Origin: an uncultured Pseudomonadota bacterium
GTDB lineage: Bacteria > Pseudomonadota > Alphaproteobacteria > RF32 > CAG-239
DNA length: 64,000 nucleotides
Reading direction: 5' to 3'
NCBI GenBank assembly: GCA_949298065.1
Contig: CASFUZ010000004.1
Span: 62,001 to 126,000 of the forward strand
In this document: in pieces, positions 22,305-51,890 of the stretch
Layout: the number at the start of each line of letters is the position of its first letter
Numbering within the stretch: the first letter of the stretch is position 1
The notes under the pieces: generated by a model
What the model was told of the DNA's origin: nothing
The model's database searches: none
What the model saw: the letters and a program-made list of their open reading frames with translations, nothing else
Translations under genes and position numbers: made by a program

Positions 22305-22622
22305 CTATATATTATAAAAATTAGTAAAATAGATATATCTCGCCAAATAAACAAGAACCGGAATGGATAGAATTATATAGGCTTTTTTGAGATTTGTTTT
22401 ACGCTTTTTCCAAGCATAAATCGTAGGTGCAATTATTATGAGCAATATTGTCAATGTCATTATGGTATAGTTAAACCTATTTTCATATGCCCAACCACAA
22501 CCTTCATATCCCCAATGCATATCATAGCTCATCGTACTAGGATAGTCCGTAGCCACAACAACACTTGCCAAAAAATTTATAATTGACAATAGATAAAAAG
22601 GTATTAGTTTGATTTTTTTCAT
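22305..22622 (-). CDS. Small membrane protein, duplicate A
   Basis: ATG 22622 gives 105 residues; the frame's earlier Met has no support. There is an N-terminal membrane helix (5-25), an aromatic loop with HWGYEGCGWAYENRF (about 37-51), and two further helices (52-70 and 80-100). It differs from the copy at 23062-23379 by six residues, so the pair arose by recent duplication. I do not recognise the family. The intervening gene at 22637 has a similar layout but unrelated sequence. Confidence 0.75.
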   Translation of the reverse strand: MKKIKLIPFYLLSIINFLASVVVATDYPSTMSYDMHWGYEGCGWAYENRFNYTIMTLTILLIIIAPTIYAWKKRKTNLKKAYIILSIPVLVYLARYIYFTNFYNI

Positions 22623-22636
22623 AATTGCACCTTCGG

Positions 22637-23032
22637 TTAAAGCGGAATACATTTTTGAACTTTATTCCAACTCAAGCAATCGTTTCTGCAAATGTGTTGG
22701 TCATAGTCCCATACCAAGCCATTATCAAGACAAGAATCTAATTGGTGTGCTCGCTTGATATTTGCATTGAATAAAAACATTTGAAGAAAAGCTAAAAAAA
22801 TGAGCATTATAAAAATATAATGTTTTTGTTTATATGTATTAAACACCCAAAAGATTAACCCCCAACACAATGTTGTGATGATTGCAACATATGGAATATG
22901 CGCCATAGAGGCTTCTTCATTTTCCGTAATATAGGCTTCATAAATCAGAAACAAGACAATAGGTGTAATCAAAATTCCTTTAACAATTATATGCATTGCT
23001 TTAAGAAATAACTCTTTGGTTTGTTTTTTCAT
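22637..23032 (-). CDS. Membrane protein with Cys-rich tail, unknown
   Basis: The 131-residue protein has three membrane segments (about 13-32, 45-65 and 70-90) and a C-terminal tail with cysteines at CLDNGLVW, HICRNDC and KCIPL, likely disulphide-bonded outside the membrane. It lies between the two near-identical small membrane genes, on the same strand, with a 15-base overlap into the leader of the downstream copy. The family is not recognised. Confidence 0.65.
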   Translation of the reverse strand: MKKQTKELFLKAMHIIVKGILITPIVLFLIYEAYITENEEASMAHIPYVAIITTLCWGLIFWVFNTYKQKHYIFIMLIFLAFLQMFLFNANIKRAHQLDSCLDNGLVWDYDQHICRNDCLSWNKVQKCIPL

Positions 23033-23061
23033 ATATGTTTCTCCTTAAAGTTATTTCAAAA

Positions 23062-23379
23062 TTATATATTATAAAAGTTGGTAAAATAGACATATCTTGC
23101 CAAATAAACAAGAGCCGGGATGGATAGAATTATATAGGCTTTTTTGAGATTTGTTTTACGCTTTTTCCAAGCATAAACCGTAGGTGCAATTATTATCAAC
23201 AATATTGTTAATGTCATTATGGTATAGTTAAACCTATTTTCATATGCCCAACCACAACCTTCATATCCCCAATGCATATCATAGCGCATCGTGCTAGGAT
23301 AGTCCGTAGCTACAACAACACTTGCAAAAAAATTTATAATCAACAATAGATAAAAAGGTATGAGCTTGATTTTTTTCAT
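23062..23379 (-). CDS. Small membrane protein, duplicate B
   Basis: The 105-residue near-copy of the protein at 22305-22622 (six substitutions: S13L, L18F, S32R, I68V, V89A, I96V). The ATG is followed by the same MKKIKLIPFYLL N-terminus, and the similarity extends about 17 bases upstream of the ATG and to the end of the gene. Membrane topology and the central Trp/Tyr/Cys-rich loop are unchanged, so both copies seem to be under constraint. Function unknown. Confidence 0.75.
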   Translation of the reverse strand: MKKIKLIPFYLLLIINFFASVVVATDYPSTMRYDMHWGYEGCGWAYENRFNYTIMTLTILLIIIAPTVYAWKKRKTNLKKAYIILSIPALVYLARYVYFTNFYNI

Positions 23380-23468
23380 AATTGCACCTTCGGTTAAATT
23401 TGTTCAAAGTATATTCAGCATTTACCTTAAATACAATAAAAATCACCAACAATCTTTTATAACAAAAA

Positions 23469-23489
23469 CACCCTCCGCAAGGGAGGGAC
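23469..23489. terminator. Hairpin at the start of the palindrome array, locus 1
   Basis: CCCTCC/GGAGGG stem with an A-rich left flank, about 90 bases upstream of duplicate B on plus coordinates. It is the first of four hairpins in this intergenic array. Confidence 0.6.
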
Positions 23490-23985
23490 GTGCCTGTTTC
23501 ATTTCGCAACAAGACTAAAGACAATGAGAATGGCTAGCTCCTCGTTTTGTTCCTCATATACACCCGCTCCGAACTCTACGAGTTCAAATCTCGGGGATGA
23601 CAGCAATACAAAAAAGGCTTCCATAAAGGAAGCCTGATTGGTGTCTTGCTCCGTAAGGTTTGCCTTATAAGGCAAACCAACTTCGCTTCGGGCACTTGAC
23701 TTGTAACACCGCTTACGGATTGCTGTCGCATTCCTCAGCGTTTAACAAGTCGGCGCATCACCATTAAAAAAAAGCGCCATCAAGGCGCTTTTTTTTAATG
23801 GTGATCCCAACGAGATTGTCCGCGACATTGCTTCGCAATGCTTGTTCCTCTGCGCTCATTCGCAATTGCTCACCGGCGTTCTCCCGCCCGCCTTTCGCTT
23901 GTAGTCAAACTCGTCTCTACGAGTTCGTATCTCGGGAATGACTATAATACAAAAACACCCTCCATAAGGGAGGGTGTTTTTGTAT
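23490..23985. repeat. Alternating repeat modules separated by long palindromes, locus 1
   Basis: No gene is seen in this stretch. It holds, in order: a partial A-type end with a T-arm-like string (23579-23593); a palindrome at 23615-23635 (8-bp stem); module B (about 23636-23756); a perfect 22-bp-stem palindrome at 23757-23805; module A (about 23799-23945), which opens with 19 bases identical to the 3' end of the adjacent tRNA-Glu (23799-23817 versus 23986-24004) and closes with a T-arm-like string in the opposite orientation (23919-23935); and an 18-bp-stem palindrome at 23946-23986. The same module order recurs at 51.3-51.9 kb. Confidence 0.7.
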
Positions 23986-23986
23986 T
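23946..23986 (-). terminator. Terminator of tRNA-Glu (18-bp palindrome)
   Basis: An 18-bp perfect stem (AATACAAAAACACCCTCC and complement) with a 5-base loop directly abuts the encoded CCA end of tRNA-Glu on the minus strand and ends in a T5 tract. Confidence 0.85.
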
Positions 23987-24060
23987 GGTGATCCCAACGA
24001 GATTCGAACTCGTATCGCCACCGTGAAAGGGTGGTGTCCTAACCATTAGACGATGGGACC
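23986..24060 (-). tRNA. tRNA-Glu (UUC)
   Basis: A 75-base tRNA with encoded CCA. The acceptor stem GGTCCCA pairs with TGGGATC; the anticodon arm is CCACC-CTTTCAC-GGTGG with anticodon TTC, and the T-arm is ACGAG-TTCGAATC-TCGT type. All arms pair. Its 3' end has a second, partial copy at 23799-23817. Confidence 0.97.
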
Positions 24061-51316: not shown

Positions 51317-51332
51317 AAAATGGTTAAGATAA

Positions 51333-51367
51333 AAACTCGTTGCTTTATGAAAAGTAACGAGTTTTTT
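51333..51367 (+). terminator. Terminator after the 111-aa gene
   Basis: AAACTCGTTGCTT pairs with AAGTAACGAGTTT with one G-T pair, followed by T7. Confidence 0.85.
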
Positions 51368-51890
51368 TGTGGGCGGAGAAGACTGTCCGCGACAATGCTG
51401 TCGCATTGCTTGTCAGGCTAAAGCCACCGGCATACTTCCGTCTGCCTGCCGCTTGTAGTCAAACTTCCATCTGGAAGTTCGAGAAGCTTATCTAAAAAAC
51501 ACCATAAAAAAACCACCCATTAAGGGTGGTTTTTTGATTGGTCTTACTTTGTAGGTTTCGCTTATTAAATAAGCTCAACAACTTCGTTTCGGTCAAAGTA
51601 CTTGTAACATTTGTTTTGCACGCTGTCGCGGCTTCACAAATTAACAAGTTCTTTTCACCATACAAAAAAAGGCTCCGTTGGGAGCTTTTTTTTGTATGGT
51701 GCCCTGGAGAAGACTGTCCGCGACAATGCTGTTGCATTGCTTGTTCCACTGCGCGGCTGGCTAAAGCCACCGGCATACTCCCGTCTGCCTGCCGCTTGTA
51801 GTCAAACTTCCATCTGGAAGTTCGAGAAGCTTATCTAAAAAACACCATAAAAAAACCACCCATTAAGGGTGGATTTTTTTATGGTGCACC
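51368..51890. repeat. Alternating repeat modules separated by long palindromes, locus 2
   Basis: No gene is seen. Order: module A (51376-51500), palindrome 51507-51535 (12-bp stem), module B (51536-51655), palindrome 51656-51701 (21-bp stem with one G-T), module A again (51697-51842), palindrome 51843-51886. The two A copies share a right end that is the same for over 70 bases, including the CCACCC/GGGTGG hairpin. The second A opens with TGGTGCCCTGGAGAAGACT, which looks like the complement of a tRNA 3' end. The B and A modules match locus 1 at 23.5-24.0 kb. Confidence 0.7.

Follow-up and report, generated by a model that had tools for sequence, protein, structure and literature searches.

The window (the whole stretch of 64,000 nucleotides that was analyzed) belongs to contig C4 in a genome of 1.62 Mb, which is kin to MAGs of uncultured Alphaproteobacteria from gut and rumen. 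It carries tRNA-Glu(ttc) on the minus strand, and the DNA behind the 3' end of this gene (locus 1) is a series of alternating modules with palindromes between them, in the order A-T-B-T-A-T. Reading outward from tRNA-Glu, a terminator is followed by an inverted T-arm, a loop, the 5' strand of the T-stem, a core, a tail, and a second terminator. Further out come a B-type core and a third terminator, then another unit, now decayed, and finally what is left of a last terminator. Two in-house covariance models, whose E-values are rough, were searched: R1, built from seven A-type units of the genus, and R2, built from A-type units with no enterobacterial sequence. The features of locus 1 are as follows.

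23986..24060, minus strand: tRNA-Glu(ttc), host of the array (ARAGORN; Rfam tRNA)
23946..23986: terminator palindrome between tRNA-Glu and the first unit, perfect 18-bp stem (arms 23946-23963 and 23969-23986)
23919..23935, minus strand: inverted copy of the tRNA-Glu T-arm (reverse complement of nt 49-57 at 23919-23927, 9/9)
23906..23914, minus strand: sense copy of nt 49-57, T-stem 5' strand plus GTTTG (8/9 identical)
23818..23905, minus strand: core of the first A-type unit, hairpins, 88 bp (its end, TCGCGGAC followed by A58, is also present in locus 2 of the window)
23799..23936, minus strand: complete A-type unit (covariance models, rough E-values: R1 1.8e-5; R2 5.2e-12)
23799..23817, minus strand: tail, exact 19-nt copy of tRNA-Glu nt 58-76 (sequence identity)
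23757..23805: terminator palindrome, perfect 22-bp stem (arms 23757-23778 and 23784-23805), taking in the tRNA-end CACCAT/ATGGTG
23639..23756, minus strand: B-type unit, core in opposite orientation, CACCA at its end
23602..23638: third terminator (AATACAAAAAAGGCTTCC...GGAAGCCTGATT; repeat analysis)
23522..23601, minus strand: decayed third unit, with inverted T-arm (23574-23601), core, and tail remnant ATTCTCATTG (23522-23531)
23461..23487: outermost terminator remnant (repeat analysis)

The preliminary description of this DNA had reported the alternating modules, both perfect stems, a 19-base identity with the 3' end of tRNA-Glu, and T-arm-like strings on the other strand. All of these are present: the identity is exact, and the strings at 23919-23935 and 23577-23597 match the T-arm of tRNA-Glu. 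Its coordinates were correct except for the left edge, as the array runs on to the terminator remnant. Module A does start with a tRNA tail and end with a T-arm string, but it is itself a split T-arm copy that encloses a hairpin core. Similarly, the proposed duplication of tRNA tails with their terminators holds insofar as these occur in tandem, in multiple copies, and next to tRNA genes, but the tRNA-derived parts are only a frame. They enclose a conserved hairpin core, which is common to several tRNAs and is not tRNA-derived. Within the frame, helix P2 is formed by the sense copy of nt 49-57 together with its inverted counterpart. The B-type unit is found in other MAGs (L074 and L093) exactly between CCA and the native terminator, in L074 with a terminator of its own.

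Occurrence at tRNA genes and the building rule

The genome has 39 tRNA genes, and about 25 of them (counted by eye) carry units in their 3' flank. The occupied hosts include Glu (two), Ser, His, Lys (two), Gly (two), Thr (three), Asn, Phe, Ala, Arg (four), Val, Pro (two), Met (two), Gln, and Asp; tRNAs without units mostly have another tRNA directly behind them or are of the Leu, Ser, and Gln groups. The general unit, 170-340 bp in size and often in tandem, reads tRNA, terminator, inverted T-arm, short loop, T-stem 5' strand (nt 49-57), hairpin core (80-150 bp), nt 58-76, and terminator, and one and the same terminator often follows both the tRNA and the tail. In A-type units, nt 49-57 are copied before the core and nt 58-76 after it, so that the core formally splits the T-arm at a constant position, between G57 and A58, and an inverted copy of the same T-arm lies directly ahead of the sense T-stem copy. 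Several core families are present in both orientations. Several contigs start within cores, the kind of assembly break that repeats are expected to cause.

The large number of copies permits the building rule to be read: the ends of a unit are those of the neighboring tRNA, and the A-type join is G57/A58. Direct copies of the own tRNA (at least 12 nt of nt 49-73) were found in the 3' flank of 33 of the 99 tRNAs of five genomes of the genus and in the 5' flank of none. When direct copies of at least 12 nt or inverted copies of at least 10 nt within 500 nt downstream were counted, 48 of these 99 tRNAs had one, and the upstream control gave no direct and one inverted match. Pairings with foreign tRNAs gave 0-0.4% direct and about 1-2% inverted matches, and two genomes of other families had own-tRNA copies at 0/10. 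Own-tRNA copies in 3' flanks are far above chance. Six tRNAs of the genome have a direct copy of precisely their final 19 nt (A58-A76). Among 54 units of the genus, other MAGs, and E. coli, 22 have tails of exactly 19 nt, with secondary modes of 15 and 25 nt. A modified A58 that stops reverse transcriptase was considered as the source of the 19-nt tail and set aside: 15- and 25-nt tails exist, and E. coli, which to our knowledge is without m1A58, also has 19 nt.

Cores at different tRNAs of this genome are closely similar (Gly/Met 92%, His/Lys 90%, and Pro/Asn 85% identity), and the tRNA pieces around near-identical cores differ, each matching its own neighbor. Nearly all of the 31 core places in the genome are in tRNA arrays or at contig ends. 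The place behind tRNA-Ala(cgc) is empty in one congener (G001) and occupied in another (G004) with the same downstream DNA, and tRNA-Glu in various MAGs is followed by different core types or by none; all these relatives are MAGs, in which array lengths may be collapsed by assembly. Presence and absence by itself could be deletion between direct repeats, but the shared cores could not. The same core families behind different tRNAs, with re-tailored ends, very probably reflect spread between tRNA genes, which loss alone does not explain. Plain local tandem duplication with template switching at the tRNA and terminator hairpins, and with no mobile core, would produce the sense-antisense-sense order that is expected from fold-back copying, and post-tRNA and post-tail terminators that are often the same. 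This reading is very improbable, as it leaves unexplained the 85-92% identical cores behind different tRNAs with the same 57/58 junction and the end motifs held in common with E. coli.

Full-length matches to R1, which models one core type and was used with strict filters, were found in 130 of 153 genomes and 14 of 17 genera of the order, with 1 to 16 copies in each (0-16 per genome across the order). Under the same limits of one core type and strict filters, there were no matches in 396 other sampled Pseudomonadota (397 searched, with matches in this genome only). The preliminary description had proposed a check of whether copies adjoin tRNA genes, and in a wide set drawn from these genomes they do: 63 of the 69 A-type units have a same-strand tRNA at most 900 nt ahead of them, and 15 tRNA kinds are represented. 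The six exceptions are three units at contig starts, locus 2 of the window, and two with no tRNA in the available flank. The tails of 36 of the 63 match the neighboring tRNA at 19/19 positions (mean 16.3, versus 10.5 for foreign tails), and the T-stem copies match their own tRNA at 8.5 (sense) and 8.0 (inverted) of 9 positions, versus 6.5 and 5.8 for foreign tRNAs. Tails in older units have decayed, with 10-16 of 19 positions left. The modules are not single-copy and the T-arm strings do match a tRNA, the two points on which the earlier tRNA-derived model had been staked.

Movement of a REP/BIME- or PATE-like hairpin element by a Y1 transposase of IS200/RAYT type would agree with hairpin-rich units that have no target duplication at the core and an insertion always 3' of a conserved GTTCG. 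Nevertheless, Y1 genes are present in 53 of the 153 genomes of the order as against 130 with the element, the genome with 16 copies (G435) has no Y1 gene, and the sole Y1 gene of the present genome belongs to an ordinary IS200-type element with different ends. The Y1 transposase was rejected as the mover of the units because it has no association with them across the 153 genomes, and this explanation is scarcely credible. REP/BIME elements are also short intergenic palindromes in mosaics with other motifs, but they are not tied to tRNA genes, have no tRNA-derived ends, and are tied to a Y1 enzyme. Integron attC sites resemble the present hairpins in separating the members of arrays, but the units have tRNA pieces at their ends, no cassette ORFs were seen, and no integron integrase was identified. 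The single Y1 gene of the genome lies at L157:366-815 (G000:C33) and is flanked by CCGGCCTAGCCGG hairpins.

Mirror cases on the 5' side were also observed, in which exact copies of the first 16-25 nt of a tRNA, with their end inside the D-loop, stand upstream of the intact tRNA and are separated from it by hairpin-rich, core-like sequence. They concern Ala-cgc, Glu-ctc, Pro-tgg (twice, in tandem), and Pro-ggg, at L228 (G003:C61:1-410), at L022 (G000:C28:1-9000), and at L038 and L057 upstream of their Pro tRNAs.

The second array of the window and tRNA-integrating elements

Locus 2 of the window repeats the module order of locus 1.

51331..51886, minus strand: second array, A-T-B-T-A-T, no adjoining tRNA (R2 matches 51715-51833 and 51410-51490)
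51697..51715, minus strand: exact 19-nt copy of nt 58-76 of tRNA-Leu(cag), the gene of which lies 22 kb off (C4:136367-136449)

Its core ends in TCGCGGAC, as does the core of the tRNA-Glu unit. A 22-kb island (C4:113886-136367, window 51886 to beyond 64000) separates tRNA-Leu(cag) from locus 2 and holds a large serine-recombinase ORF of 537 aa (C4:134873-136486) that ends over tRNA-Leu(cag). Because of the exact 19-nt tail and the island between tRNA and array, locus 2 is the array of tRNA-Leu(cag), pushed off by a later insertion. The island sits between the tRNA and the array; therefore, the array is the older of the two. Two small resolvase-like ORFs are also present in the island.

This locus bears on the reading of the units as attachment-site remnants, left by phages or islands that integrate at tRNAs with a crossover in the T-loop, in which the tails are displaced att halves. 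tRNA-integrating elements leave the same displaced 3' fragments, with a sharp start in the T-loop, and restore an intact tRNA, and a displaced tRNA fragment is found at the far end of the present units; furthermore, an island with a large serine-recombinase ORF lies between tRNA-Leu(cag) and its array. In contrast to such elements, the units of 170-340 bp have no integrase or recombinase gene, no other genes, and no cargo, they contain an inverted T-arm copy, and the same cores are common to many tRNAs. The integrases of the genome lie elsewhere, it has three tyrosine recombinases only, two of them XerC/D-sized, and the island between tRNA and array makes the array older. Phages, plasmids, and IMG/VR contained nothing similar to the units. 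Neither a transposase or other enzyme that moves them nor a phage that carries them was found, and none of the units was caught in the act of moving. An origin as attachment-site remnants is improbable. One phage hit, MT837473, was rejected as a carrier, being a bacterial scaffold. This record (MT837473.1, L253; 6.8 kb), filed as a bacteriophage, has an mnmA-like ORF, other housekeeping-type ORFs, and tRNA-Met with a unit behind it.

Relation to RtT RNA

The tyrT repeats of E. coli were found in the 1970s, and we know of no explanation of their origin. The preliminary description knew of no named element with the present layout, but these repeats, known as RtT RNA (Rfam RF00391), are a named relative. 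At curated thresholds, Rfam gave only the tRNA over the window and nothing above the RtT cut-off in the genome. Searched against the whole genome, RF00391 gave a single match, to the full length of the tRNA-Ser(cga) unit (E 0.0065), and its score of 25.6 bits, the best of any unit, lies below the curated gathering score of 45 bits. In the other direction, R2 was run over 361 kb including two E. coli regions, and all seven tyrT RtT copies ranked first among eight matches, with rough E-values of 0.0016-0.18, the next match having 5.5. The covariance models are thus reciprocal best matches, and homology was found in both directions.

The anatomy is also the same. At tyrT/tyrV of E. coli K-12, an inverted T-arm, a sense T-stem ending GGTTCGACT, a core, and GCTGAGT with an exact 19-nt tail are repeated. 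The units here likewise have the inverted T-arm, a loop, the sense T-stem with this ending, a hairpin core, and the 19-nt 3' end of the adjacent tRNA joined directly after GAGT, as at tyrT/tyrV and proK, and both occur in tandem (about 170-180 bp in E. coli; the tyrT repeats, rttR, have 178 bp). In Salmonella Infantis, two annotated RtT copies follow tRNA-Pro; their tails and T-stems are those of Pro, each unit includes a terminator, and R2 detects each with a rough E-value of 8e-5. At the proK locus of E. coli the layout is the same, the units having proline-tRNA ends and a terminator each. A full and an interrupted unit (both unannotated) are present there in K-12, and BL21(DE3) has two full and one interrupted unit in flanks identical to those of K-12 over 749/750 nt; the difference is exactly one 168-bp unit, BL21 being the longer. 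Among 5426 E. coli genomes, those with any RtT have 1 to 14 places (median 3), and 731 were without a match at the sensitivity used. The two systems differ in that two tRNA loci (Tyr and Pro) were observed in E. coli but most tRNAs are occupied in this genome, which has several core families in both orientations and scores below the curated RtT threshold. In K-12, the second proK unit (L308, NC_000913.3:3707600-3709600) is interrupted by a REP-like palindrome directly after GGTTCGACTCGA.

The identical anatomy, with modest scores (25.6 versus the curated 45 bits), suggests a link to the E. coli repeats. The stretch behind tRNA-Glu is read as an array of RtT-like, tRNA-tailored repeat units (probability about 0.6), and the units very probably belong to an RtT-like, tRNA-tailored class, one that has spread from tRNA gene to tRNA gene. 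The occurrence of the same design behind two tRNA genes of E. coli suggests that the oddity of this species is one case of a widespread type of repeat that moves from one tRNA gene to another. RtT copies adjoin Asn and Lys tRNA genes in Actinobacillus pleuropneumoniae, where Northern blots gave signals (PMC4986893), and the same paper cites, for E. coli RtT, a role under amino-acid limitation and in the stringent response. For RtT, expression and a link with several tRNAs are therefore already known; no report of the tailoring rule or of genome-wide occupation was found in the open-access literature. In the present genomes, the construction of the tyrT repeats is found at most tRNA genes, and with the rule, movement from one tRNA gene to another can be tested directly, including in laboratory strains of E. 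coli, where BL21 has one proK unit more than K-12. The repeats explain why the assemblies of these MAGs break at tRNA genes, and stray tRNA-fragment annotations could have the same cause.

Helices, function, and a possible mode of spread

In the unprompted RNAalifold prediction, each half of the split T-arm is paired with the inverted T-arm (helices P1 and P2), and the core is folded into hairpins. In 85 aligned units, 90.6% of cells are in standard pairs (25-43% in slid controls), and 405 cells are changed on both sides versus 97 in shuffles. P1 and P2 covary because they follow the tRNA, and the core helices covary independently and strongly, a point that the preliminary description had left to be checked. 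In non-redundant units, the core helices have 1007 Watson-Crick cells with 38 G-U versus 26 A-C cells. Core helix 5, which is hypervariable, shows a single G-U cell against 141 in which both sides have changed. This pattern may be read as that of DNA hairpins or template-corrected palindromes rather than of a pure RNA-level constraint. The substitution pattern of P1 and P2 leans the opposite way, with 58 G-U versus 4 A-C cells, mostly in two columns (P2 48:0, mostly two columns; P1 10:4). A reading of the unit as a tRNA-like minihelix was weakened, since P1 seldom reaches the acceptor part outside E. coli.

The main rival is a functional noncoding RNA of RtT type, in which the transcript released with the tRNA has a job, such as that proposed for E. 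coli RtT in amino-acid limitation or the stringent response, and the tRNA-derived ends serve processing. The covarying core helices, the excess of G-U over A-C in the tRNA-derived helices, and the Northern signals, Asn and Lys neighbors, and stringent-response role reported for RtT (PMC4986893) agree with it, and it could explain part of the conservation. On the other hand, the decay of tails in older units makes a need for the tail unlikely, the near balance of G-U and A-C in the core and the single G-U cell against 141 double changes in helix 5 speak against it, and copies vary from 0 to 16 per genome and in unit number among E. coli strains. A functional RNA is a serious but rather unlikely explanation of the units as a whole.

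The RtT-like repeat class is the preferred reading. Its anatomy, tRNA-specific ends, fixed junction, shared cores, orthologous presence and absence, one-unit change in E. coli, and covarying core helices are established, and the steps that would produce them are proposed as follows. Each unit probably duplicates the 3' part of the neighboring tRNA gene, with an inverted T-arm ahead and the T-loop interrupted by a mobile core (57/58 in A-type). Cores would reach new tRNAs at the DNA level, either by recombination at the short stretch that all T-loops share (GTTCGA...AATC) or through some recombinase. Fold-back copying at the target, on the hairpins of terminator and T-arm, may give the inverted and the direct tRNA pieces. 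Recombination between repeated segments of tail and terminator, or slippage there, would lengthen and shorten the arrays and leave an intact tRNA each time, and the units may be transcribed along with the tRNA, as reported for RtT RNA in E. coli and Actinobacillus. This mechanism of spreading is tentative. Equally tentative is the wider proposal that gene-less mobile repeats put a hairpin core into tRNA loops (the T-loop at 57/58 and, it appears, also the D-loop around nt 16-25, where a 5' fragment is displaced), regenerate the tRNA, copy the target for their own ends, and have colonized most tRNA genes of the order, with RtT as the best-known member.

Tandem paralogous small membrane proteins (MKKIKLIPFYLL...) adjoin both tRNA-Glu arrays of the genome (window 22305-23379 and L022:5830-6605). 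At C28, these genes sit between two unit fragments, as if they were captured cargo.
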